A stretch of DNA of 64,000 nucleotides from Acetatifactor sp. (GTDB taxonomy: Bacteria; Bacillota; Clostridia; Lachnospirales; Lachnospiraceae), in the NCBI GenBank assembly GCA_022511425.1, contig JAFLRO010000003.1, positions 1-64,000 of the forward strand, written 5' to 3'. This document shows, piece after piece, positions 19,444-39,624 of this stretch. Position numbers and translations under genes: made by a program. Each line of letters begins with the position of its first letter. Positions within the stretch are counted from its first letter, which is position 1. The notes under the pieces were generated by a model. It ran no database searches and was not told the origin of the DNA. It saw nothing but the letters and a program-made list of their open reading frames with translations.

Positions 19444-20289
19444 ATGATCAAAAGTGTTTTAAAGGGCATGGTAATTGGTATTGCAAACATTATTCCCGGT
19501 GTCAGCGGAGGAACCATGATGGTGTCCATGGGTATCTACGATAAGCTGATCCACTGTATCACTCATCTGTTCCGCGAGTTCAAAAAGAGTGTGCTGTTTC
19601 TGCTGCCCATCGCAGTGGGTATGGTGATTGCCATCGCGGGAAGTTCTTTCGGCCTTACATGGTTGTTTGAAAATTATCCGATACAGACTAACCTGCTCTT
19701 TGTGGGATTGATTCTGGGCGGGCTCCCTGCCATATGGAAAAAAGTGAAGGGAAGCAAGGTCAATATCGGACACATGGCAGCAGGCCTTCTGTTTTTTGCG
19801 CTGGTAGTTGTTTTTGCGGCCATGGGCGATACAGAGGGGACGGCGGCTGACCTTTCCTTTAACATAGGGAATGTATTGATATTATTCTGTGTGGGTATTA
19901 TAGCCTCAGCGACCATGGTCATTCCCGGCGTCAGCGGTTCTATGGTGCTGATGCTTATGGGCTTTTATCATCCGGTGTTAAATGCTATTCGAGACTTTTT
20001 CTCAGCGCTGGCGGCTCTGGATATACAGGGCATTTTAAAGGGCTGCGGAATCTTGATTCCCTTTGGCATAGGTGTGGTTGCGGGCATCTTTGGAATCGCA
20101 AAACTGGTGGAGATCATTTTTGAAAAGTTCCCGCTGTACGCATACTGGGCTATCATCGGTCTGATCATATCCTCGCCCATTGCCATCTTTTTGATGGGAA
20201 CCTTCCCCGCGTTGACAGTGCTGAATGTGTTAACAGGTGTAGTGGCGCTGGTAATCGGTTTTGGTATTGCTATGAAGCTCGGTGAGTAG
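19444..20289 (+). CDS. DUF368 family membrane protein, probable polyprenyl-phosphate transporter
   Basis: 281 residues with about 8-9 membrane segments and the paired family signatures NIIPGVSGGT near the N-terminus and MVIPGVSGSM near residue 160. DUF368 proteins (PopT) have been shown in other bacteria to recycle undecaprenyl phosphate across the membrane for cell-wall synthesis; the role here follows from the family. Normal length. Confidence 0.85.
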   Translation: MIKSVLKGMVIGIANIIPGVSGGTMMVSMGIYDKLIHCITHLFREFKKSVLFLLPIAVGMVIAIAGSSFGLTWLFENYPIQTNLLFVGLILGGLPAIWKKVKGSKVNIGHMAAGLLFFALVVVFAAMGDTEGTAADLSFNIGNVLILFCVGIIASATMVIPGVSGSMVLMLMGFYHPVLNAIRDFFSALAALDIQGILKGCGILIPFGIGVVAGIFGIAKLVEIIFEKFPLYAYWAIIGLIISSPIAIFLMGTFPALTVLNVLTGVVALVIGFGIAMKLGE

Positions 20290-20316
20290 ACTGAACTGTG
20301 AATGATAGGTGGTTGT

Positions 20317-21147
20317 ATGGAAGCGTACGGAGATTTTGCCGGGGTATATGACGAACTGATGGACGATACCCCCTATGACCAGTGGGCTGAGCGGCTGGAT
20401 TCCCTGATCAGAAAGTACGGAGTATCCAGGCCTGAGCGGGATGCGGAAGGAGCGCGGAACGTGGAAGGGGCGCTGGATGCGGAGCGGAATCTGGTGGTGG
20501 ATTTAGGCTGCGGCACTGGAACCCTGGCGGAGATTATGTACGGCATGGGTTATGATATGATTGGAGTGGATCTGTCCGAGGCCATGCTGAATATTGCCAT
20601 GGAGAAAAAGGAGAGAAGCGGATCGGAGATCCTATATCTGCTTCAGGACATGCGGGAGTTGGAACTGTACAGTACCGTGGGAACTGTGTACAGTGTCTGT
20701 GACTCGCTGAACTATATTCTGGAAGAGGATGAGCTGCTCCGAGTGTTTGCCCTGGTGAACAATTATCTGTTTCCCGGGGGTATTTTTATCTTTGATTTCA
20801 ATACGGACTACAAGTACCGTGAAGTCATCGGGAATACAACCATTGCCGAGAACAGGGAGGACTGCAGCTTTATCTGGGAGAACTATTATGACCCGGAGGA
20901 AGGGCTGAATGAGTACGACCTGACTGTATTTGTCCGACAGGAGGGTGACAGCTTCCGCAAGTTCTCGGAGGTTCATCTGCAGAGAGGCTACACCTTAGAG
21001 CAGATGGTCTCACTTTTGGAAAAGGCGGGAATGGCTCTGGTGGAAGCTGTGGATGCGGAGACGGGCGGATTGGTGACTCCGGAGAGCGAGAGAATATACA
21101 TTGTGGCAAGGGAACAGGGAAAAGAGTTTCCGGCTGCATGGAAATGA
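20317..21147 (+). CDS. Class I SAM-dependent methyltransferase
   Basis: 276 residues. Motif I is VVDLGCGTGTLAEI, followed by the acidic GVDLSEAML; the start MEAYGDFAGVYDELMDDTPYDQW is typical of a clostridial family of uncharacterised methyltransferases. The loop before motif I is a little long and rich in Glu/Ala/Arg. The start at 20317 has GGTGG upstream. It ends 7 bases before hslO, so they are likely cotranscribed. The substrate is unknown. Confidence 0.85.
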   Translation: MEAYGDFAGVYDELMDDTPYDQWAERLDSLIRKYGVSRPERDAEGARNVEGALDAERNLVVDLGCGTGTLAEIMYGMGYDMIGVDLSEAMLNIAMEKKERSGSEILYLLQDMRELELYSTVGTVYSVCDSLNYILEEDELLRVFALVNNYLFPGGIFIFDFNTDYKYREVIGNTTIAENREDCSFIWENYYDPEEGLNEYDLTVFVRQEGDSFRKFSEVHLQRGYTLEQMVSLLEKAGMALVEAVDAETGGLVTPESERIYIVAREQGKEFPAAWK

Positions 21148-21154
21148 GGAAAAT

Positions 21155-22033
21155 ATGAAAGACTATATTGTCAGGGCTACTGCGGCCAACGCACAGATCA
21201 GGGCTTTTGCCTGTACCGCAAAAGGTGTGGCAGAGGAGGCGAGAAAGGCTCATAACTTAAGTCCGGTGGTGACGGCAGCGCTGGGACGGCTTTTGAGCGC
21301 AGGAGCCATGATGGGAAGCATGCTGAAAGGTGACAGTGACATTCTGACCTTACAGATCAAGGGTGACGGGCCTGTTCGGGCATTGACCGTGACGGCAGAT
21401 TCCCATGGAAATGTGAAGGGTTATCCTGAGGTGCCGGATGTGATTCTTCCCGCCAATGCAGCGGGAAAGCTTGATGTGGGAGGCTCAGTGGGCAAAGGCA
21501 GTTTAAGCGTCATCAAGGATCTTGGGCTGAAAGAACCCTATGTGGGTCAGACGCTGCTCCAGACAGGGGAAATTGCTGAGGACCTGACTTATTATTTTGC
21601 AACCTCTGAGCAGGTGCCTTCCTCTGTGGGACTGGGAGTGCTCATGGAGCGTAACAATACCGTAAAACAGGCAGGAGGCTTTATTATTCAGCTGATGCCA
21701 TTTGCAGAGGATGCTATTATTGACAGGCTGGAGCAGAACCTGAAGGGTATCAGCTCCGTGACCTCCATGCTGGATGCGGGAAACAGTCCGGAACAGATGC
21801 TTGAATTGCTGCTGGAGGGACTGGAATTACAGATTACCGACACCATGCCTGTGGCCTTCACCTGTGACTGCTGTCGAGAAAAGATTGAAAAGGTATTGAT
21901 CAGCCTTGGTGCAGAAGAACTTAAGGACATGATCAATGAGGGAAAGGAAATAGAAGTAAACTGCAGCTTTTGCAGCAAGCGTTATAAGTTTGATGTGGAC
22001 GAGCTGAAGGCATTGTATGAAAGAAGCAGATGA
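21155..22033 (+). CDS. hslO: Hsp33 redox-regulated chaperone
   Basis: 292 residues, the normal length. The N-terminal holdase domain ends in a C-terminal zinc switch with CDC (FTCDCC) and, about 30 residues on, CSFC. Oxidation of these cysteines releases zinc and activates the chaperone under oxidative stress. Start ATG at 21155 after ATGAGGAAA. Confidence 0.95.
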   Translation: MKDYIVRATAANAQIRAFACTAKGVAEEARKAHNLSPVVTAALGRLLSAGAMMGSMLKGDSDILTLQIKGDGPVRALTVTADSHGNVKGYPEVPDVILPANAAGKLDVGGSVGKGSLSVIKDLGLKEPYVGQTLLQTGEIAEDLTYYFATSEQVPSSVGLGVLMERNNTVKQAGGFIIQLMPFAEDAIIDRLEQNLKGISSVTSMLDAGNSPEQMLELLLEGLELQITDTMPVAFTCDCCREKIEKVLISLGAEELKDMINEGKEIEVNCSFCSKRYKFDVDELKALYERSR

Positions 22034-22062
22034 ACGATGCCGCAGCGAAGAGAGGTTTCGTT

Positions 22063-23985
22063 ATGAAGCATGGTTTTATCAAAGCCGCGTCTGTGACGCC
22101 GAAGATCAGGGTGGCAGACCCGGCATACAATGCGGGAGTAATATGTGAGAAACTGGAAGAGGCATGGGAGAAGGGAGCCCGTCTGATCGTGTTTCCGGAG
22201 CTATGCCTGACGGGATATACCTGCGGGGATCTTTTCCTCCAACGGGCGTTGCTGGAGGAAGCGAAGAATCAACTTTTCCGGGTGGCAGCAGCCACTGTGG
22301 GAAAGAGGGGGCTGATCATGGTGGGGCTGCCACTGGAGCGGGATGGCAAACTCTACAATGTGGCGGCGGTACTCTGTGACGGTCGTATTCTGGGGTTGGT
22401 ACCCAAGGCGAATATCCCCTCCTATGCGGAGTTTTATGAGGGGAGGCATTTTACAGAGGGAAACAGGGACGCGGTGCCTTACCGTATTGGCGACCAGATC
22501 GTGAGCTTTGGCACGAATATCCTGTTCTGTTGCGAAGAACTGCCGGAGCTTATTGTGGGCTGTGAGATTTGTGAGGATCTGTGGGTGGCGGAACCGCCCA
22601 GTACGGGACTGGCGCTGAAAGGGGCCACAGTCATTGCCAACCTGTCCGCTTCCAATGAGACGGTGGGTAAGGACGAGTACAGGGAGCTCCTTGTAAAATC
22701 TGCCAGTGCCCGGCTGCTCTGCGGCTATGTTTATTCTTCGGCAGGGGAGGGAGAGTCCACTCAGGATCTTGTTTTTGGCGGTCACAATCTGATTGCGGAA
22801 AACGGAGTGATTCTTGCTCAGGCAAAGCGTTTTCAGGGTGAGACAGTGTATGCAGATCTGGATGTACACAGACTGCTGTCTGAGAGACTGAGGATGGGAA
22901 CTTTTGGGGGAGAACTTCAACCTTACATTAAAGTAATGTTCTCCATCACTCCGGAAGAGACGAAACTGGAGCGGACCTTCAGCAATATGCCTTTTATTCC
23001 GACTGACGAGGAAAAGCGCAAACTGCGGTGTGAGGAGATCTTGTCCATTCAGTCCTACGGATTGAAAAAAAGGTTGGAGCACACCGGCTGTTCTGCGGCA
23101 ATCATCGGTATCTCCGGCGGCCTGGATTCCACGCTGGCGCTTCTGGTGACAGTCCGCGCCTTTGATCTGCTTAAGCTGGACAGAAAGGGAATTTTAGCCG
23201 TGACAATGCCCTGTTTTGGCACTACGGACAGAACCTATGGCAATGCCTGCAAGCTGGCAGAAACTTTGAGAACAGAGCTTATGGAGATTGACATCAGAGA
23301 AGCTGTGGACACACACTTCCGGGATATTGGCCAGAATCCCGACGACCGTGATGTGACCTATGAGAACAGTCAGGCACGGGAGCGGACACAGGTGCTCATG
23401 GACCTTGCCAATAAGCGGAACGGTATTGTGATCGGAACCGGAGATATGTCTGAACTGGCATTGGGCTGGGCTACCTACAACGGCGACCACATGTCCATGT
23501 ACGGTGTGAACGCGGGGGTGCCCAAGACTCTGATCCGTCACTTGGTTCAATATTACACGGACACCTGCGGAGACAGAGAGTTGTCAGAGGTGCTGACAGA
23601 TGTTCTCGATACCCCGGTCAGTCCGGAACTGTTGCCGCCTGTGGACGGTGCAATTGCCCAGCGAACTGAGGATCTTGTGGGTCCTTACGAGCTCCATGAC
23701 TTTTTCCTGTACTATATGCTGCGCTGCAGCTTTCCTCCGGACAAAGTGTATCGCATAGCCCAATTGGCTTTTCGGGGACTTTACGATCAGGAGACAATCC
23801 TGAAATGGCTAAAGGTATTTTATAAAAGATTTTTCAGTCAGCAGTTCAAACGCTCCTGTCTGCCGGACGGCCCCAAGGTGGGTAGTGTTGCACTCTCGCC
23901 CAGAGGGGATCTTCGGATGCCTTCGGATGCCAGCGCGGGACTTTGGCTGGAACAGCTGGAAAAACTCCTGCCGCCGCAGAATTAG
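22063..23985 (+). CDS. nadE: Glutamine-dependent NAD+ synthetase
   Basis: A 640-residue two-domain enzyme. The N-terminal nitrilase-type amidase has Glu46 (FPEL), Lys115 (PKANIP) and Cys170 (EICEDLW); the C-terminal synthetase has the ATP loop SGGLDSTLAL and GTGDMSELALGW. It makes NAD+ from deamido-NAD+ using ammonia from glutamine. I chose the ATG at 22063 with AGAGG upstream. A minus-strand terminator overlaps its 3' end. Confidence 0.95.
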   Translation: MKHGFIKAASVTPKIRVADPAYNAGVICEKLEEAWEKGARLIVFPELCLTGYTCGDLFLQRALLEEAKNQLFRVAAATVGKRGLIMVGLPLERDGKLYNVAAVLCDGRILGLVPKANIPSYAEFYEGRHFTEGNRDAVPYRIGDQIVSFGTNILFCCEELPELIVGCEICEDLWVAEPPSTGLALKGATVIANLSASNETVGKDEYRELLVKSASARLLCGYVYSSAGEGESTQDLVFGGHNLIAENGVILAQAKRFQGETVYADLDVHRLLSERLRMGTFGGELQPYIKVMFSITPEETKLERTFSNMPFIPTDEEKRKLRCEEILSIQSYGLKKRLEHTGCSAAIIGISGGLDSTLALLVTVRAFDLLKLDRKGILAVTMPCFGTTDRTYGNACKLAETLRTELMEIDIREAVDTHFRDIGQNPDDRDVTYENSQARERTQVLMDLANKRNGIVIGTGDMSELALGWATYNGDHMSMYGVNAGVPKTLIRHLVQYYTDTCGDRELSEVLTDVLDTPVSPELLPPVDGAIAQRTEDLVGPYELHDFFLYYMLRCSFPPDKVYRIAQLAFRGLYDQETILKWLKVFYKRFFSQQFKRSCLPDGPKVGSVALSPRGDLRMPSDASAGLWLEQLEKLLPPQN

Positions 23986-24009
23986 TAAGCAAGTGGGGCG
24001 GCAGGAGTT
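23963..24009 (-). terminator. Terminator of the FMN-binding-like gene, overlapping the end of nadE
   Basis: A perfect 13-bp stem (23963-23975 with 23997-24009), followed on the minus strand by five T. It lies partly inside the nadE coding end. A second hairpin, GTGTACTGTA/TACAGTACAC (24013-24022, 24031-24040), sits between it and the minus-strand stop codon. Confidence 0.75.
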
Positions 24010-24047
24010 CCAGTGTACTGTAATGAGTGATACAGTACACCAGCCTG

Positions 24048-24545
24048 CTATCGTACCGCAGGACTGGCTGAAGGCGAAGGTGAAGGGGTTGCCTTGTTCA
24101 AAGAGGTCTGGATGGCTTCCAACAACACCAGAGAGGTATACTTGGCATCCGCGGTATAGGTGACCTGCTCCAGTGACTGGAGCTCATATACCTGTTGGCA
24201 TATGGAGTCGAAGGTGGGCTCCAGCAGCGGATACATGGTGGTGACGGCATCATTCAGGTTGACCATGCGGATTGAGGTGATGGCGTCATTATCCACAATG
24301 ACCTCCACATCTATGGCCTGGCTGCCCAGCACCAGCTCTGTGGTGTATATGCCGGGTATGTAGAGAGAATCTGTGTTTGTGACATCAGTTTGAGTTTTAT
24401 TCTGCTCAGGAGCCGGACTTTCTTCTTTATCCGGAAGGAACATCACAACCAGCAGAATCACAAACAGGATGCCAAGCACAACAAAGACTCCGGTATAGAT
24501 CAGTTCTTTCATATGAAGTACAATGATTTTCGTTTTAGCACTCAT
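24048..24545 (-). CDS. Membrane-anchored FMN-binding-domain-like protein
   Basis: 165 residues: one membrane helix (about 14-36), an acidic/Pro linker, then a domain laid out like the FMN-bind family: IPGIYTTELVLG, VIVDNDAITSIRMV and the C-terminal TADAKYTSLVLLEAI where the family usually has SGATYTS. The flavin-attaching Thr/Ser region is thus altered, so flavin binding is uncertain. Family members act in RnfG/NqrC-type electron transfer or extracellular flavinylation. It is alone on its strand with its own terminator. Confidence 0.6.
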   Translation of the reverse strand: MSAKTKIIVLHMKELIYTGVFVVLGILFVILLVVMFLPDKEESPAPEQNKTQTDVTNTDSLYIPGIYTTELVLGSQAIDVEVIVDNDAITSIRMVNLNDAVTTMYPLLEPTFDSICQQVYELQSLEQVTYTADAKYTSLVLLEAIQTSLNKATPSPSPSASPAVR

Positions 24546-24618
24546 CTTTTTCCCCTTAAACTCTTTCTGGACACTTTTTCTTTATAATAGATATGAGCAT
24601 AAGGAAAAGAATATGCCA

Positions 24619-24648
24619 TTGACAAAGTACCGCGACGGTTGCTATCAT
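24619..24648 (+). promoter_or_regulatory. Possible promoter for glnA
   Basis: TTGACA (24619-24624) and TATCAT (24643-24648), spaced 18 bases. A TATAAT at 24583-24588 further upstream is another possible -10, and would give a leader that contains the whole antitermination structure with room to spare. Confidence 0.5.
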
Positions 24649-24654
24649 AGAGGT

Positions 24655-24703
24655 AAGACAAGGGCGTCTTCCGCATGGGAAAAGACTGCCCTTTTGTGCG
24701 TTT
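24655..24703 (+). promoter_or_regulatory. ANTAR-type antitermination leader of glnA: two hexaloop hairpins and a competing terminator
   Basis: Hairpin P1 is AAGAC[AAGGGC]GTCTT (24655-24670) and hairpin P2 is AAAAG[ACTGCC]CTTTT (24680-24695). Both loops have six bases with A at position 1 and G at position 4, the known recognition pattern of ANTAR RNA-binding proteins. The P1 loop AAGGGC (24660-24665) also pairs with GCCCTT (24688-24693), and TCTT (24667-24670) with AAGA (24682-24685), forming a terminator-like hairpin followed by T-rich sequence. P1/P2 and the terminator exclude each other. An ANTAR gene follows glnA. Confidence 0.8.
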
Positions 24704-24740
24704 AAATGTTCATCTGCAGGATGAAACGGAGGAGGACTAT

Positions 24741-26072
24741 ATGGGAAATTACACAAGGGAAGATGTTATAAGGATTGTTGAAGAAGAGGATGTAGAGTTT
24801 ATCAGACTGCAATTCACAGATATGTTTGGTAACCTGAAAAATATTGCAGTCACTGCAAGCCAACTGGAGAAGGCGCTTGATAATAGCTGTATGTTTGACG
24901 GCTCTGCTATTGACGGTTTTGTGAGCGTTGAGGAGTCGGACATGTGCCTGTACCCGGATCCTTCCACCTTTGCCATTCTGCCATGGAGACCCCAGCAGGG
25001 TAAAGTGGCAAGAATGCTTTGCAATGTACATCATCCCGATGGCAGGCCCTTTGCGGGAGATCCCAGGCAGGTATTGAAAAAAGTCACTGCGGAGGCTCGT
25101 GAACTGGGGTACACTTTTGAAGTGGGACCCGAGTGTGAGTTTTTTCTGTTCAACACAGACGAGAATGCAATACCAACCACAGAGACCAGCGAACAGGCCA
25201 GTTATTTTGATATCGGTCCTTTGGATGGCGGTGAAAATGCAAGACGGGATATTGTTATGGTTCTGGAAGACATGGGGATGATCATCGAGGCCTCCCATCA
25301 CGAGATGGCACCGGTGCAGCATGAGATTGATTTCCGTTATGACGAGGCACTTGTCACCGCGGACAATATTATGACATTCAAACTGGCCGCCCGTACGATT
25401 GCCAAGCGCCATGGTCTTCACGCTACTTTTATGCCGAAGCCCAAGGTGGGTGTGAACGGTTCCGGCATGCACATCAATATGTCGCTTCACAAGGACGGCG
25501 TCAACATATTTGAGGACAAGAACGATCCTAATGGCTTAAGCCGGGAAGCATACTATTTTATCGGGGGTATCATGAAGCATATCAAAGGAATGGCGGCTAT
25601 CACAAATCCTCTGGTAAACTCCTATAAGAGATTGGTTCCCGGTTACGCGGCACCGGTGTATATCGCATGGAGCGCCACCAACCGCAGTCCATTGATCCGA
25701 ATTCCGGCGGTTGTGGGTTCCGGAACAAGGATCGAACTGAGAAGCCCGGATTCTGCTGCAAATCCCTATCTGACCCTGGCAGTATGTCTGAAGGCAGGGC
25801 TGGATGGCATCATAAATAAGATTGAGCCGCCCAGAAGTGTTGACTGTAATATCTATAATATGACGGACGAGGAGCGCAAGGCGCTGAATATCGAGCTGCT
25901 TCCGGGGACGTTACTCGATGCTGTCGAGGAGCTGAAGAAAGACCCTCTCATCCTCGAAGTACTGGGAAAGCATATATCGGAAAATTATATCGCCGCCAAG
26001 GAGGCTGAGTGGCAGAGATACCGCGCCAATGTCTCCGAGTGGGAAATCCAGGAATATCTGTATAGATATTAG
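24741..26072 (+). CDS. glnA: Glutamine synthetase, type I
   Basis: 443 residues, the length of the Firmicutes GSI-alpha type. It has DGSAIDGFVSVEESD near the N-terminus, the ATP/metal signature VNGSGMHIN, and NRSPLIRIP. It makes glutamine from glutamate, ammonia and ATP, the main route of ammonia assimilation. No adenylylation-loop tyrosine is expected in this subtype. The ATG at 24741 has GGAGGA upstream; the open frame continues back to 24675 through the leader hairpins, which argues against an earlier start. Controlled by the leader described above. Confidence 0.97.
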   Translation: MGNYTREDVIRIVEEEDVEFIRLQFTDMFGNLKNIAVTASQLEKALDNSCMFDGSAIDGFVSVEESDMCLYPDPSTFAILPWRPQQGKVARMLCNVHHPDGRPFAGDPRQVLKKVTAEARELGYTFEVGPECEFFLFNTDENAIPTTETSEQASYFDIGPLDGGENARRDIVMVLEDMGMIIEASHHEMAPVQHEIDFRYDEALVTADNIMTFKLAARTIAKRHGLHATFMPKPKVGVNGSGMHINMSLHKDGVNIFEDKNDPNGLSREAYYFIGGIMKHIKGMAAITNPLVNSYKRLVPGYAAPVYIAWSATNRSPLIRIPAVVGSGTRIELRSPDSAANPYLTLAVCLKAGLDGIINKIEPPRSVDCNIYNMTDEERKALNIELLPGTLLDAVEELKKDPLILEVLGKHISENYIAAKEAEWQRYRANVSEWEIQEYLYRY

Positions 26073-26114
26073 TCCCTTCTTATTCATATTTCATATGGAA
26101 TAGGAGGTGGGCAT

Positions 26115-26663
26115 TTGACGAATATAATTGTAGCACTGCCGAAGTTGGATGACGCCAAGGGCATCAAGAATGTGCTTGTGAGAAACGGCTTTCCTGTGGC
26201 AGGTGTCTGCACTGCGGGCGCACAGGCCATCAGTCATATGGACGGTTTGAACGACGGCATCGTGATTTGCAGTTACAAGCTGGCTGACATGGTATATTCG
26301 GAATTGCAGGAATGTCTCCCCCCGGGATTTGAGATGCTGTTAATAGCCTCGGATCATTTGCTCAGCCAATGTGAGGGTAGTGGTATTGTATGCCTTTCCA
26401 TGCCCTTGAAGGTCCACGACCTGATAAGTACGGTTGCGATGATGTCTGAGGGAATCGTCAGGAGACGGAGGAAGGCCCGGCTGAAACCGAAGGTCAGAAG
26501 TGCGGATGAGGAGGCTTCCATCAAAGAGGCAAAAGAGTTATTGATGGACAGGAACCATATGACGGAGGAAGAGGCGCACCGTTACCTGCAAAAGTGCAGC
26601 ATGGACAGCGGAACCAATCTGGTGGAGATGGCGCTTATGGTATTGTCAATGATGAAGGAATAG
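26115..26663 (+). CDS. ANTAR-domain response regulator
   Basis: 182 residues. The N-terminal part (1-115) has a receiver-like fold, but I do not see the usual phospho-acceptor Asp pocket clearly (VICSYK stands where a D-containing strand is expected). The C-terminal ANTAR domain (about 128-180: IKEAKELLMDRNHMTEEEAHRYLQK...LVEMALMVL) binds paired hexaloop RNA hairpins and prevents termination. The start is TTG after AGGAGGTGG. Lying 42 bases after glnA, it very probably acts on the glnA leader. Confidence 0.88.
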   Translation: MTNIIVALPKLDDAKGIKNVLVRNGFPVAGVCTAGAQAISHMDGLNDGIVICSYKLADMVYSELQECLPPGFEMLLIASDHLLSQCEGSGIVCLSMPLKVHDLISTVAMMSEGIVRRRRKARLKPKVRSADEEASIKEAKELLMDRNHMTEEEAHRYLQKCSMDSGTNLVEMALMVLSMMKE

Positions 26664-26696
26664 GCATCAACAGGAAGGAAAAAGGAGGTTGGCAGC

Positions 26697-27551
26697 ATGC
26701 ATTTTACAAAGATGGAGGGCTGCGGAAACGATTATATCTATGTAAACGGCTTCGAGGAAAAAATTCCTCAGGTGGAGAAACCTGGGCTGGTTCGCAGACT
26801 CAGCGACAGACATTTTGGCATCGGTGGGGACGGAGTGATCTTTATCAATCCTGCTGAGGAAGCAGATTTTGAGATGGAGATGTACAATGCGGACGGAACC
26901 CGGGCGGAAATGTGCGGAAACGGCATACGATGTGTGGGCAAGTTTGTATACGACAAGGGTCTGACAGACAAGGAACAGATTACTGTGGTCAGTGCAGGAA
27001 AGGTAAAAGTTCTGGATCTGACTGTGGAGAAGATGACCGGGCAGCAGGACAGAGGTGTTGTGACCAGAGTGCGTGTAAACATGGGCAGTCCTATTTTAGA
27101 GCCCGCCCTGATTCCGGTAGAAGCGGAGGGGAGTAGGGCAATCAACGAGCCCATCACTGTGGATGGCAGGGAATATCGCATGACCTGTGTGTCTATGGGG
27201 AACCCCCATGCCGTGATTTTTACTGAGGGTGTGGCTGATTTGGAATTGGAGCAGATTGGGCCACTGTTTGAAAACCATGAGCGTTTTCCTAAGCGCACCA
27301 ATACAGAGTTCGTGGAAATCCTTGACAGGCAGACTGTCTTTATGCGGGTCTGGGAGAGGGGAACCGGAGAGACGCTGGCCTGCGGGACCGGGTGCTGCGC
27401 TACTGCTGTTGCCTGCATCTTAAATGAATTGACGGATGATAAAGTAACAGTTAAGCTGTTAGGAGGGGAGTTGCTGATTGAGTGGGACAGGGAGAATAAT
27501 CTGATCTACATGACAGGTCCGGCAACGACGGTCTTTGAGGGAACCGCGTGA
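26697..27551 (+). CDS. dapF: Diaminopimelate epimerase
   Basis: 284 residues. The two catalytic cysteines are in CGNGIRC (about 73) and ACGTGCC (about 222). It converts LL- to meso-diaminopimelate for lysine and peptidoglycan. An AAAGGAGG site precedes the ATG. It stands directly before dapL, which makes its substrate. Confidence 0.96.
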
Positions 27552-27591
27552 CGGTATGACGGGAAATTGTAAAGAAGAGGAGAGGAAAAAC

Positions 27592-28812
27592 ATGTTTAAG
27601 CTAAATGATAACTACCTAAAGCTTCCCGGAAGTTATCTGTTTTCTACCATCGGGAGGAAAGTGAATGCTTACAGTGCAGCAAATCCGGACAAGAAGATTA
27701 TACGCCTTGGAATCGGGGATGTGACCCAGCCCCTGGCGCCGGTTGTCATACAGGCGCTCCACCATGCTGTGGATGAAATGGGAAAAGCCGAGACCTTCCG
27801 CGGGTATTCACCGGATCTGGGCTATGAATTCTTAAGAAATGCCATTGCAGAGAATGATTACAGGGCAAGGGGCTGTAATATATCGGCTGATGAAATCTTT
27901 GTTTCCGACGGAGCAAAGAGCGATTCCGGCAATATCCAGGAGATTTTTAGCCTGGACAACAGAATTGCGGTGTGTGACCCTGTTTATCCGGTGTATGTGG
28001 ATTCCAATGTTATGGCGGGCCGGACCGGTAATTATGACGGGAACACGGAGATCTGGAGCAATGTGATCTATATGCCCTGTACTGCAGCGAACAATTTTGC
28101 ACCTGAGCTGCCCAAGGAAACCCCGGATTTGATCTATCTTTGTTTCCCCAATAATCCCACCGGCGCTACGGTGACAAAGGCTCAGCTTCAGGAATGGGTG
28201 GATTATGCCAACAAAGTGGGGGCAGTGATCATTTTCGATGCCGCTTATGAAGCATATATCTCTGAGGCAGATGTCCCCCACAGCATTTACGAATGTGAGG
28301 GTGCCAGAACATGTGCCATAGAACTGCATTCCTTCTCTAAGAATGCGGGATTTACCGGGGTACGCTTGGGATATACTGTGATTCCAAAGGATTTGAAATG
28401 CGGTGATGTGGCGCTGCACAGTCTGTGGGCAAGACGTCACGGCACCAAGTACAACGGAGCGCCCTATATTGTACAGCGTGCGGGAGAAGCCGTGTATTCC
28501 GAGGAGGGGAAAGCTCAGTTAAAGAAGCAGGTGGCATATTACATGAACAATGCCAGCTATATATACAACGGATTAAAGGAAGCGGGTTTCACTGTCTCCG
28601 GCGGTGTGAACGCACCCTATATCTGGCTTCAGACCCCCAAGGGCATGACCAGCTGGGAATTCTTTGACTACCTGTTAGAGAACGTAAATGTAGTGGGCAC
28701 CCCCGGCTCCGGCTTTGGCCCCAGCGGTGAAGGGTATTTTAGGCTGACCGCCTTCGGCAGTTACGAGAACACAGTGGAGGCCGTGGACAGGATCAAGACC
28801 TTGAAATTATAG
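27592..28812 (+). CDS. dapL: LL-diaminopimelate aminotransferase
   Basis: A 406-residue PLP enzyme with the DapL start region [29 protein letters not shown] and the lysine in [15 protein letters not shown]. It makes LL-diaminopimelate straight from tetrahydrodipicolinate, bypassing the succinyl or acetyl steps. The ATG at 27592 has AGAGGAG upstream and fits the family's length; the longer frame overlaps dapF. Confidence 0.95.
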
Positions 28813-28855
28813 CATATAAGCCCATTGCGCTGGCAAAAGAAAGGCGGAAAATAAT

Positions 28856-30607
28856 ATGGATGTTAAGAACTGTTACAGAGACCTGACGATCAAAGACATC
28901 GGCGAACAGCATATTGGAGAGACCCTCCGTGTGGCGGGATGGGTGGAGAATATCCGTGACCACGGTGGCGTTTCCTTCATTGACTTGCGGGATATGTATG
29001 GCGTGCTGCAGGTGGTGCTGCGCGACACGGATCTTTTGAAGGGGCTGACCAGAGAGACCTGTGTCAGCATTCAGGGGCCTGTGGAGAAGCGTGATGAGGA
29101 CACCTACAACCCCAGGCTGCTCACGGGAACCATAGAATTGGAAGCAAAGGAAATTACTGTGCTGGGCAAGGTGTATAAACAGCTTCCCTTCGAGGTGATG
29201 ACATCAAAGGAAACGAGAGAAGAGGTGCGGCTGATTTACCGCTATCTGGACATGAGGAACGCCAAAGTGCGTGACAACATTCTCTTCCGTTCCCAGGTTA
29301 TTGCCTTCCTGCGCCAGAAGATGACGGAGATGGGATTTGTGGAGATCCAGACCCCCATCCTCTGTGCATCCTCCCCCGAGGGAGCCAGGGACTATATTGT
29401 TCCCTCCAGACGTTTTAAAGGAAAATTTTACGCCCTGCCCCAGGCGCCCCAGCAGTATAAACAGCTGCTGATGGCATCAGGTATCGACAGATACTTCCAG
29501 ATCGCGCCCTGCTTTCGGGACGAGGATGCCCGGGCGGACCGTTCTCCCGGCGAATTTTACCAGCTGGATTTTGAGATGAGCTTTGCCACTCAGGAGGATG
29601 TGTTCAAAGTGGGAGAAGAAGTACTCTCTGCCACTTTTGAAAAATTCGCACCCGAGGGAAGTGTTGTAACTCCGGCTCCCTATCCAATTATCAGTTATAA
29701 ACAGGCGATGCTGGAGTTTGGCACCGACAAGCCGGATCTGAGAAATCCCTTACGCATTATAGACCTGACAGACTTTTTCCAGAAATGTACCTTTAAGCCA
29801 TTCCTGAACCGCACTGTCCGCGCCATTAAAGTCCATGCGGACATGAGCAAAGGTTTTCATGAAAAGCTTTTGCAGTTTGCCACATCCATGGGTATGGGCG
29901 GACTGGGCTATCTGGAGGTGGCTGAGGATCTGTCCTATAAAGGTCCCATTGACAAATTTATCCCGGATGAGCTTAAGAGCGTAATGAGGAAAGAGGCAGG
30001 ACTGGAGGTAGGAGATACCATTTTCTTCATTGCCGACAAGGAAGACAGAGCTAATTTTTATGCGGGCAGGCTTCGCACAGAGCTGGGAGAGAAGCTGGAT
30101 CTCATCGAAAAGAACGCTTTCCGCTTCTGCTATGTGAACGACTTCCCCATGTATGAGATGGACCCGGATACAAAACAGCCGGCCTTCACCCACAACCCCT
30201 TCTCCATGCCCCAGGGTGGTCTGGAAGCATTGGAGACAAAGGATCCGCTGGACATTCTGGCTTATCAATATGACATCGTATGCAACGGCGTGGAACTATC
30301 CTCCGGTGCCGTGAGAAACCACGACATGAACATCATGGTAAAAGCCTTTGCCATAGCGGGCTACGACGAAGCAACCCTAAAGTCCAAATTCGGAGCCCTT
30401 TATCAGGCGTTCCAATTCGGCGCGCCCCCTCACGCAGGCATGGCGCCCGGCGTGGACCGCATGCTGATGCTCCTTCGCGGAGAAGACAATATCCGAGAAG
30501 TCATCGCCTTCCCCATGAGCGGCTCCGGGCAAGATCTCATGTGCAACGCCCCCAGCGAAGTGACAGAGCAACAGCTCCGCGAAGTCCACATCAAAGTCCG
30601 AGACTAA
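28856..30607 (+). CDS. aspS: Aspartyl-tRNA synthetase
   Basis: 583 residues, bacterial type: N-terminal OB-fold anticodon domain (about 1-110), class II catalytic domain with motif 2 [15 protein letters not shown] and motif 3 [12 protein letters not shown], and the GAD insertion between (about 290-420). It is followed by gatCAB, so it may be non-discriminating and also charge tRNA-Asn with aspartate for amidation. I see no asnS in the window. The last 320 or so bases have codon use that differs from the rest of the gene. Confidence 0.96.
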
Positions 30608-30626
30608 TAGAAAGGAACCCCACCGC

Positions 30627-30920
30627 ATGCCAAACATCATCACCGACGAAACCATAGAATACGTAGGCATCCTAGCCAAACTGGAACTCTCCGATGAAGA
30701 GCGCGAACAGGCCAAGAAAGACATGGGCAGAATGCTGGATTACATCGACAAACTGAACGAACTTGACACTTCAGGCATAGAACCCATGTCCCACGTATTC
30801 CCGGTGCAGAACGTATTCCGTGAGGACGTTATAACAAACGGCGACGGAAGCGAAGAGACCCTGAAAAATGCTCCGGAAGAAAAGAACACCATGTTCGTGG
30901 TGCCCAAAACTTTTGACTGA
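30627..30920 (+). CDS. gatC: Asp/Glu-tRNA amidotransferase subunit C
   Basis: 97 residues, normal for GatC: helical [14 protein letters not shown] start, [15 protein letters not shown] in the middle and the typical [16 protein letters not shown] end that wraps GatA and GatB. It stabilises the amidotransferase. It begins 19 bases after aspS with an AAAGGA site, and ends 16 bases before gatA. Codon use (many GAA, CTC, ATC, CGA) is unlike its neighbours. Confidence 0.95.
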
Positions 30921-30936
30921 GAGAAACGAGGTAGCT

Positions 30937-32394
30937 ATGGAACTTTTATCCCTATCGGCTGCAGCACTTGGAACAGCCATCAAAGAAGGAAAGACCACGG
31001 CCGTGGAGGCCATGCAGGCCGTTCTGGACAAGATAGACCGGACAGAAGAACTGTACAACTGTTATGTGACAATCGATAAAGAAGGCGCATTGCGCAGAGC
31101 GAAAGAGGTGCAGAAAAAGATTGAGACAGGAGAGCTGACCGGCCCTCTGGCAGGCGTGCCCGTGGCCATCAAAGATAATCTGTGTACCAAGGGAATCCTG
31201 ACCACTTGTGCCTCCAGAATTCTGGGTAACTTTAACCCGACCTTCTCTGCAGAAGCCGTGCTGAACCTGGAAAAAGCCGGTGCAGTGTTAATCGGCAAGA
31301 CCAACATGGATGAATTTGCCATGGGATCCACTACAGAGACCTCCGCTTACGGTGCGACTAAGAACCCCTGGAACCCGGAGCATGTGCCCGGCGGATCCTC
31401 CGGCGGTTCCGCGGCAGCTGTGGCGGCTCAGGAGTGTTTCTTTGCGCTGGGATCTGACACAGGCGGTTCCATCCGACAGCCCGCCTCCTTCTGCGGGGTA
31501 GTGGGTATGAAGCCCACCTACGGAACGGTATCCCGGTACGGACTGGTGGCATACGGATCGTCCCTGGATCAGATCGGGCCTCTGTGCAAGACTGTGGAGG
31601 ACTGCGCCGTGATTCTGGAGACGATCGCCTCACATGACCAAAAGGATTCCACCTCTATCGAGCGACAGGATACAGATTTTACTTCTGCACTGGTAAAGGA
31701 TGTTCACGGAATTCGTATCGGAATCCCCAGAGACTACTTCGGCGAGGGCCTGGACCCGGAGGTAAAAGAAGCAGTACTTCGAGCGGCGGAGCTATTGAAG
31801 GCAAACGGTGCGCTTGTGGAAGAATTTGATTTAAGCCTGGTGGATTATGCCATTCCCACCTACTATACCATCGCTGCCGCGGAAGCCAGCTCGAACCTGG
31901 AGCGTTTCGACGGTATCAAATACGGCTGCCGCGCCGAAGCAGAAGGTCTGCATCAGATGTACAAAAAGACTCGTTCCCAGGGCTTTGGACCTGAGGTAAA
32001 ACGCAGAATCATGCTGGGCAGTTTTGTATTAAGTTCCGGCTACTATGATGCATATTATCTGAAGGCTTTGCGGGTGAAGGCAATGATCAAAAAGGCCTTT
32101 GACGATGCCTTTACAAAATATGACTGTATCCTGGGTCCTGCTGCACCCACCACGGCTCCCAAGCTGGGTGAGAGCCTGTCCGATCCCCTAAAAATGTATC
32201 TGGGAGATATTTACACCATCTCTGTGAACCTGGCAGGACTTCCGGGTATCTGCGTGCCCTGCGGAACGGACAGTAAGAGCCTGCCTATAGGTCTGCAGCT
32301 GATCGGCGATTGTTTCCAGGAGAAGAAGTTGATTCAGACTGCCTATACCTATGAACAGTTGAAAACGGAGGAAGGAGGGAAGGAAAATGGCTAA
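30937..32394 (+). CDS. gatA: Asp/Glu-tRNA amidotransferase subunit A
   Basis: A 485-residue amidase-signature protein. The catalytic triad is Lys in VAIKDN, the first Ser in GSDTGGSIRQPA and the second in that segment; GGSSGGSAAAVAA is the glycine/serine signature. It releases ammonia from glutamine for transfer to aspartyl- or glutamyl-tRNA. Start ATG 30937 after ACGAGG; an upstream in-frame ATG lies inside gatC. Confidence 0.96.
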   Translation: MELLSLSAAALGTAIKEGKTTAVEAMQAVLDKIDRTEELYNCYVTIDKEGALRRAKEVQKKIETGELTGPLAGVPVAIKDNLCTKGILTTCASRILGNFNPTFSAEAVLNLEKAGAVLIGKTNMDEFAMGSTTETSAYGATKNPWNPEHVPGGSSGGSAAAVAAQECFFALGSDTGGSIRQPASFCGVVGMKPTYGTVSRYGLVAYGSSLDQIGPLCKTVEDCAVILETIASHDQKDSTSIERQDTDFTSALVKDVHGIRIGIPRDYFGEGLDPEVKEAVLRAAELLKANGALVEEFDLSLVDYAIPTYYTIAAAEASSNLERFDGIKYGCRAEAEGLHQMYKKTRSQGFGPEVKRRIMLGSFVLSSGYYDAYYLKALRVKAMIKKAFDDAFTKYDCILGPAAPTTAPKLGESLSDPLKMYLGDIYTISVNLAGLPGICVPCGTDSKSLPIGLQLIGDCFQEKKLIQTAYTYEQLKTEEGGKENG

Positions 32395-39509: not shown

Positions 39510-39624
39510 AGAAGTAGCTGCATGACTGGCGGAAGTGGGAGCACCCACGGGAAGTGCAGCGGGATTTATGAGCCGACCGCCTGGGCACCACTCGTCTTGT
39601 GATGCGCAGACGGGCGGCTTTATT
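39510..39624 (+). promoter_or_regulatory. ZTP (pfl) riboswitch with terminator
   Basis: The aptamer shows the conserved GACTGGCGG (39524-39532), the hairpin GTGGG-AGCA-CCCAC (39535-39548) and the 3' core CCGCCTGGGCA (39577-39587). The expression platform is a terminator in which AGCCG-A-CCG (39571-39579) pairs with CGG-G-CGGCT (39611-39619), then TTATT; it takes apart the aptamer's 3' half, so ligand binding should turn expression on. ZTP/ZMP build up when 10-formyl-THF is low, fitting purO and the AICAR formyltransferase downstream. Confidence 0.9.

Follow-up and report, generated by a model that had tools for sequence, protein, structure and literature searches.

In the pattern defined by Ramesh et al. 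(2012; PMC3369931), the RNA target of ANTAR antiterminators consists of two hexaloop hairpins, and the hits reported there include sites before glutamate and glutamine synthase genes; the commentary on that work names glutamine synthetase (PMC3369936). The eut leaders of Enterococcus faecalis, recognised by EutV, are described as having two such hairpins, each with A at the first and G at the fourth loop position (A1 and G4), separated by a linker of 5-12 nt and mutually exclusive with a terminator (PMC3369931). A review (PMC6316151, citing Stutz et al. 2007) describes NitR of Clostridium saccharobutylicum as an ANTAR antiterminator that induces GS/GOGAT genes on nitrogen limitation, and in thermocellum the type I gene is Clo1313_2031, with Clo1313_2030 annotated as a receiver-ANTAR protein. 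Two further systems bear on how such a regulator might be controlled. AmiR (1qo0), which combines a pseudo-receiver with an ANTAR domain, is governed by the amide-binding protein AmiC (PMC3369936), and in Bacilli the repressor GlnR senses nitrogen through the feedback-inhibited GlnA encoded in the same operon (PMC9249791).

Given the dual hexaloop and the NitR of C. saccharobutylicum, the kind of system described below was already known; what sets this glnA locus apart is the combination of a nested topology, a pseudo-receiver and a near-constant pairing with GlnA. A literature search, which covered few subscription papers, retrieved no description of the nested arrangement, of an element of this type in Lachnospiraceae, or of a partnership between GlnA and an ANTAR protein.

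The glnA leader and its alternative folds

The locus lies in a 64,000 nt stretch of an Acetatifactor sp. genome, referred to here as the window, and comprises the following features:

24619..24648, + strand: promoter, with -35 TTGACA at 24619-24624, an 18-nt spacer and an extended -10 TG-n-TATCAT at 24643-24648
24655..24670, + strand: hairpin P1, 5 bp, AAGAC-AAGGGC-GTCTT, hexaloop AAGGGC at 24660-24665
24660..24695, + strand: competing predicted terminator, 5' arm 24660-24672, 3' arm 24678-24693, bulged U 24687, U-tract 24692-24695
24680..24695, + strand: hairpin P2, 5 bp, AAAAG-ACTGCC-CTTTT, hexaloop ACTGCC at 24685-24690
24709..24725, + strand: small hairpin TTCATC...GATGAA in the computed fold, located after the terminator and immediately ahead of the ribosome site of glnA
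24741..26072, + strand: glnA, type I glutamine synthetase, 443 aa (TIGR00653, 549 bits against a cut-off of 429)
26115..26663, + strand: NitR-like ANTAR gene, 182 aa, TTG start (PF03861)
26697..27551, + strand: dapF (PF01678)

The promoter is a strong one, has 11 of 12 consensus matches and predicts a transcription start at about 24655, giving a leader of about 86 nt. A TTGAC motif is found upstream of P1 in 57 of the 61 genus leaders that have this hairpin, 35-37 nt before the stem in 47 of them, a spacing that puts P1 at about +1. At the other end of the locus, dapF starts 34 nt after the ANTAR gene and is probably cotranscribed with it. Elsewhere in the window, a ZMP/ZTP riboswitch was detected at 39512-39593 (61.6 bits).

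Both of the 5 bp hairpins of the original prediction are present, with A1 and G4 in each loop, although the P2 stem is reduced to a 3 bp core in relatives. The 9 nt linker between them (24671-24679) falls inside the EutV-type range and is longer in several relatives. When 24653-24745 is folded, the minimum free energy structure contains the pairing of AAGGGC with GCCCTT that had been put forward as a terminator. The 5' arm of this structure consists of loop 1, the 3' strand of P1 and two more bases, whilst the 3' arm holds P2; as the bases are shared, the P1/P2 and terminator folds are mutually exclusive. The resemblance to a EutV-type target is thus a partial one, extending to the paired A1/G4 hexaloops but not to the topology: in eut it is the terminator's 5' base that gives rise to the second hairpin (PMC3369931), whereas both loops of the glnA leader lie inside the arms of a single terminator stem.

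By computation, the first 16-24 nt fold best as P1, a structure that is superseded by the terminator stem during transcription of the P2 loop. The computed energy of P1 plus P2 is -5.3 kcal/mol, against about -17 to -19 kcal/mol for the best fold, which is the terminator; with so large a difference in stability, the unaided leader should adopt the terminator fold. The shuffle z score of the leader folding energy is only -1.44, hence folding energy alone does not provide evidence for a leader element.

We consider it likely that this leader is a nitrogen-responsive switch. A NitR-like protein, the product of the gene following glnA, is predicted to bind both hexaloops as a dimer, and the bound hairpins would keep the terminator from forming, such that readthrough would allow transcription of glnA, of the regulator's own gene, in what would be positive autoregulation, and probably of dapF. 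The signal is likely to be nitrogen limitation, perceived as low glutamine, and glnA would be on when nitrogen is likely limiting. A leader that is a plain attenuator, or a weak terminator setting a constant level, or the target of some other factor, with the ANTAR neighbour acting elsewhere, could have the same appearance at one point: the U-tract in the window is only TTTT, and the site is absent from the list produced by a simple terminator scan. Such a leader would not be expected to carry two A1/G4 hexaloops, however, and the window leader matches no Rfam family at the gathering score (three sub-threshold matches had E values of 1.2-4.4).

Conservation of the element and the standing of the second loop

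Two scans blind to loop sequence were used to look for the element in other glnA leaders, neither of which took kinship into account. The first accepted a hairpin with any six-base loop, provided that this loop opened the 5' arm of a terminator further downstream, and was applied to 129 leaders, being those of 139 loci less nine without glnA and two that were truncated, plus the window. It found the element in 62 of these, as against 30 of 1290 dinucleotide-block-shuffled sequences. The second, covering 300 nt, was applied to three sets of leaders and recovered the element in 56/90 from the genus, 34/45 from further named genomes (33 of the 80 named loci duplicate leaders already counted) and 15/39 from the wider family and order. 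In 53, 31 and 14 of these, respectively, it lies within the last 200 nt; base-shuffled 200-nt leaders contained it in 18 of 870 cases (9/450 genus, 4/225 named and 5/195 family/order), two of them with A1 and G4. The remaining 34 of the 90 genus leaders failed the second scan, and by eye some of these contain weaker forms and some none. A looser P1 pattern was discarded as a search tool: it had 82 matches in the genome and 247 in the control, and two of three exact hits lacked the element by eye.

Loop 1 has A1 and G4 in 51 of the 56 genus elements, 29 of the 34 named and 11 of the 15 from the family and order. The equivalent figures for loop 2 are 47, 25 and 3, falling to 39, 18 and 2 if a stem of at least 3 bp is required. 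Hence conservation of A1/G4 across orthologous leaders, which the original prediction called for, was found in all three sets for the first loop and within Lachnospiraceae for the second, but mostly not for the second loop beyond the family.

For finer comparison, 50 of 58 genus leaders were selected and aligned; the eight omitted have long linkers or no P2, so the P2 figures from this alignment are flattering. Within it, the pairs of P1 are kept in 99.6% of cells, with the closing pairs typical of an EutV-type target conserved (C-G at the loop in 50/50 leaders and the next, A-U, in 48/50), and each loop has A1 and G4 in 46/50. Covariation in P1 and P2 is weak, amounting to two pairs with double changes, which is not above the level in shuffles. 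The terminator pairing is kept in 91.2% of cells and includes 14 doubly changed cells, neither value being reached in 500 shuffles, although the number of terminator pairs with double changes, four, was equalled in 104 of the 500. The case for a leader element therefore appears to rest on conservation and on the terminator pairing, rather than on covariation within the two hairpins.

As P2 is mostly the complement of P1, the second loop needed a separate test. It is possible that NitR reads only P1, with P2 being mostly a by-product of terminator complementarity. The complement of AAGGGC followed by GTTCTT is AAG-AACGCC-CTT, a hexaloop hairpin in its own right; A1 and G4 are missing from loop 2 in 12 of the 15 family/order leaders; leaders of gdhA show P1 but, by eye, no proper P2; and P2 stems are short, those with A1, G4 and at least 3 bp occurring in 39 of 56 genus leaders. 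Against this, loop 2 has A at position 1 in 48 and G at position 4 in 47 of the 50 selected leaders, whilst positions 2 and 3 are variable. The comparison of positions facing a U is informative: opposite U15, position 1 has A and G in a ratio of 44:2, whereas opposite U14, position 2 has them at 13:18 (Fisher p = 1.5e-7 in the 50 selected leaders, ignoring kinship). Furthermore, 17 of the 50, including the window, have a register in which one bulged base, mostly U, keeps loop 2 six bases long. Where loop 1 ends in U, the partner is G in ten leaders and A in three, such that G4 is kept, although this is also a common wobble. In these selected leaders, loop 2 thus appears to be constrained beyond the needs of terminator pairing, and EutV is reported to require both loops (PMC3369931). 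We consequently regard recognition of P1 alone as rather unlikely. Since loop 2 is mostly lost outside Lachnospiraceae, the reading in which both loops are bound is held for this family only, where it is the likely one.

The ANTAR regulator and its predicted targets

The protein encoded at 26115-26663 matches the Pfam ANTAR domain with 54.7 bits (cut-off 27.3) and is the sole PF03861 match in a genome estimated to be 97.85% complete. Its gene is the next after glnA, not two steps downstream as the original prediction had it in its heading. It consists of a pseudo-receiver, a helix and the ANTAR domain: an AlphaFold2 model (mean pLDDT 89.1, pTM 0.64) shows a fold like that of a receiver, then a long helix and an ANTAR part made of helices, and Foldseek returned EutV and Rv1626 as the best matches, with AmiR sixth. 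VIA-align listed receiver folds, the ANTAR chains found by Foldseek not being among its best 50. An ANTAR protein is common to this locus and to the C. saccharobutylicum NitR/glnA system, a likeness drawn by description in PMC6316151 only.

A receiver fold would be compatible with a sensor kinase switching the regulator by phosphorylation, as with EutV, whose receiver is phospho-accepting (PMC3369931). The protein in the window lacks all the residues typical of two-component response regulators, namely the acceptor Asp, the acidic pair and the Lys. The acceptor position, residue 53, which aligns with the phosphorylated Asp in EutV and Rv1626, is Asp in none of 30 relatives, being Ser in 20 and Gly in ten, which bears out the earlier suggestion of a receiver without a clear acceptor site. 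Nine distant ANTAR proteins were also compared. Eight of these adjoin glnA, and have the acidic pair in no case and the Asp in two (L065 and L066); the ninth, L068, has no glnA in the stretch examined and possesses the full set of receiver residues, its acidic pair and Lys aligning with Leu8/Pro9 and Met96 of the window protein. Pfam gave no receiver match to the latter at E values up to 1, and no kinase gene was seen by eye among the open reading frames of 20000-32000. Control by phosphorylation therefore seems highly improbable.

A model of the RNA element, R1, built from glnA leaders only, was used to look for target sites. Among the 150 of 906 candidates that were scored in the source genome there is a single strong site (E = 5.3e-10), the next having an E value of 0.98, so the genome appears, on these sequence criteria, to pair one ANTAR gene with one good target. 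In the genus, with stricter filters, 89 of the 138 genomes contain R1 matches at E 0.01, whilst 94 of the 138 have a strong match to the regulator protein alignment. The two tend to occur together: among the matches listed, 79 of the 94 genomes whose NitR match is strong carry the site, compared with 10 of the remaining 44 (p = 3.5e-12), leaving 15 NitR genomes without a site at E 0.01. In named genomes, including Kineothrix, Lactonifactor and Acetatifactor, a + strand site at E 0.01 was found at 60 of the 80 loci, subject to the duplication of 33 loci mentioned above.

The ten site-bearing genomes that lack a strong NitR match are heterogeneous. A second kind of synthetase-ANTAR pair occurs in G020 and G157, an ANTAR fragment is present in G019 and G140, and G120 has glnA without an ANTAR match. 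The other five have no ANTAR domain, and their sites precede gdhA (G029), a potA-like gene (G030) and a circularly permuted ATP-grasp (CP-ATPgrasp) gene (G156), or represent a left-over leader (G161) and a match judged to be due to chance (G079).

Of 105 listed genus sites, 69 are 15-195 nt before a glnA match. The 36 found elsewhere were all read by eye, and Pfam was run on eight representatives; they precede gdhA (10), amtB (5), CP-ATPgrasp genes (3), glnB (2), glnQ-like ABC genes (2) and a potA-like gene (1), with five leaders before dapF and eight matches attributed to chance. The terms glnQ-like and potA-like are our own labels for ABC ATPases. In two genomes (G006 and G128) the site precedes the glnQ-like gene, not glnA, and three further sites are glnA leaders at contig ends.

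Some of these arrangements differ in form from the glnA leader. By eye, the ten gdhA leaders have no proper P2; what their terminator seems to pair with is not the 3' strand but the 5' strand together with the start of loop 1, which would be a third topology of the competition. At three loci the gene after the element encodes a circularly permuted ATP-grasp protein (PF14403/PF04174); one of these loci is in G156, in which no ANTAR domain was found. In five relatives dapF immediately follows the leader, and glnA and nitR are missing apart from fragments in one case; this is a left-over switch without its glnA-nitR pair.

Three genomes that lack any ANTAR domain nevertheless have a site, located before a gdhA, a potA-like or a CP-ATPgrasp gene, as would be anticipated of an attenuator independent of NitR. 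The co-occurrence of site and NitR across the genus argues against this, as do the coherent nitrogen genes that follow the sites away from glnA, and together with the paired A1/G4 loops they make a leader unconnected to its ANTAR neighbour improbable. Antitermination by the NitR-like protein remains our preferred interpretation.

Glutamine synthetase as a candidate sensor

In a regulator without a phospho-acceptor, the signal most likely arrives via a protein partner, as AmiC provides for AmiR. The constant neighbour of the ANTAR gene here is glnA. Of the 115 genus glutamine synthetase matches of at least 1000 nt, 110 are followed on their own strand, within 1.5 kb, by one of the ANTAR matches listed, a count that leaves out 31 weaker rows (E 2.8e-5 or above), nearly all of which cover the receiver part only. 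Three of the five unpaired synthetases are only 37-38% identical, and are probably a different synthetase type. Conversely, 113 of 119 ANTAR places among the matches listed are on a contig with a synthetase-ANTAR pair; the remaining six are partial matches. The second pair type found in the genus has a synthetase only 42-49% identical, which is likewise coupled with an ANTAR gene. These observations suggest GlnA as the first candidate for the protein partner of the NitR-like regulator, and the near-constant pairing raises the possibility that GlnA itself is the sensor.

This would parallel the Bacilli, in which regulator and glutamine synthetase also share an operon, and would explain the pseudo-receiver; the difference is that GlnR represses by binding DNA and is controlled by the feedback-inhibited enzyme (PMC9249791), whilst the regulator here is a predicted RNA-binding antiterminator. 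The Bacillus feedback mechanism is not simply transferable. In Bacillus glutamine synthetase, Glu304 and Arg62 make contacts both with glutamine and with one another (PMC9249791); by comparison with 7tdp, the window GlnA has Ala303 at the Glu304 flap position and Ser62 at that of Arg62 (Bacillus numbering). Among 209 matches, repeated genomes included, the Glu304 position is Glu in 122, Asp in 45 and Ala in 32. Of 172 other positions conserved in 23 order-level relatives, the window GlnA keeps 160. A type III glutamine synthetase is encoded in this genome as well.

We tentatively propose that GlnA might act as the nitrogen sensor, holding the pseudo-receiver of NitR when glutamine is high and freeing it when glutamine is low, such that the enzyme would control a terminator in its own mRNA. 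This proposal would draw together the altered active-site flap of this clade, the type III enzyme as a possible back-up and the nested two-loop target.

The element would constitute a very small nitrogen switch, of about 40 nt beginning at about +1, for a large group of gut bacteria, and the RNA model predicts a regulon of glnA, amtB, glnB, gdhA and transporter genes. It makes testable the question of how nitrogen is sensed by those ANTAR regulators of clostridia that have no phosphorylation site. Because the glnA and ANTAR genes are paired almost throughout, glutamine synthetase is a candidate for the sensor, in a parallel to the GlnR-GlnA system of Bacilli that would operate on RNA.
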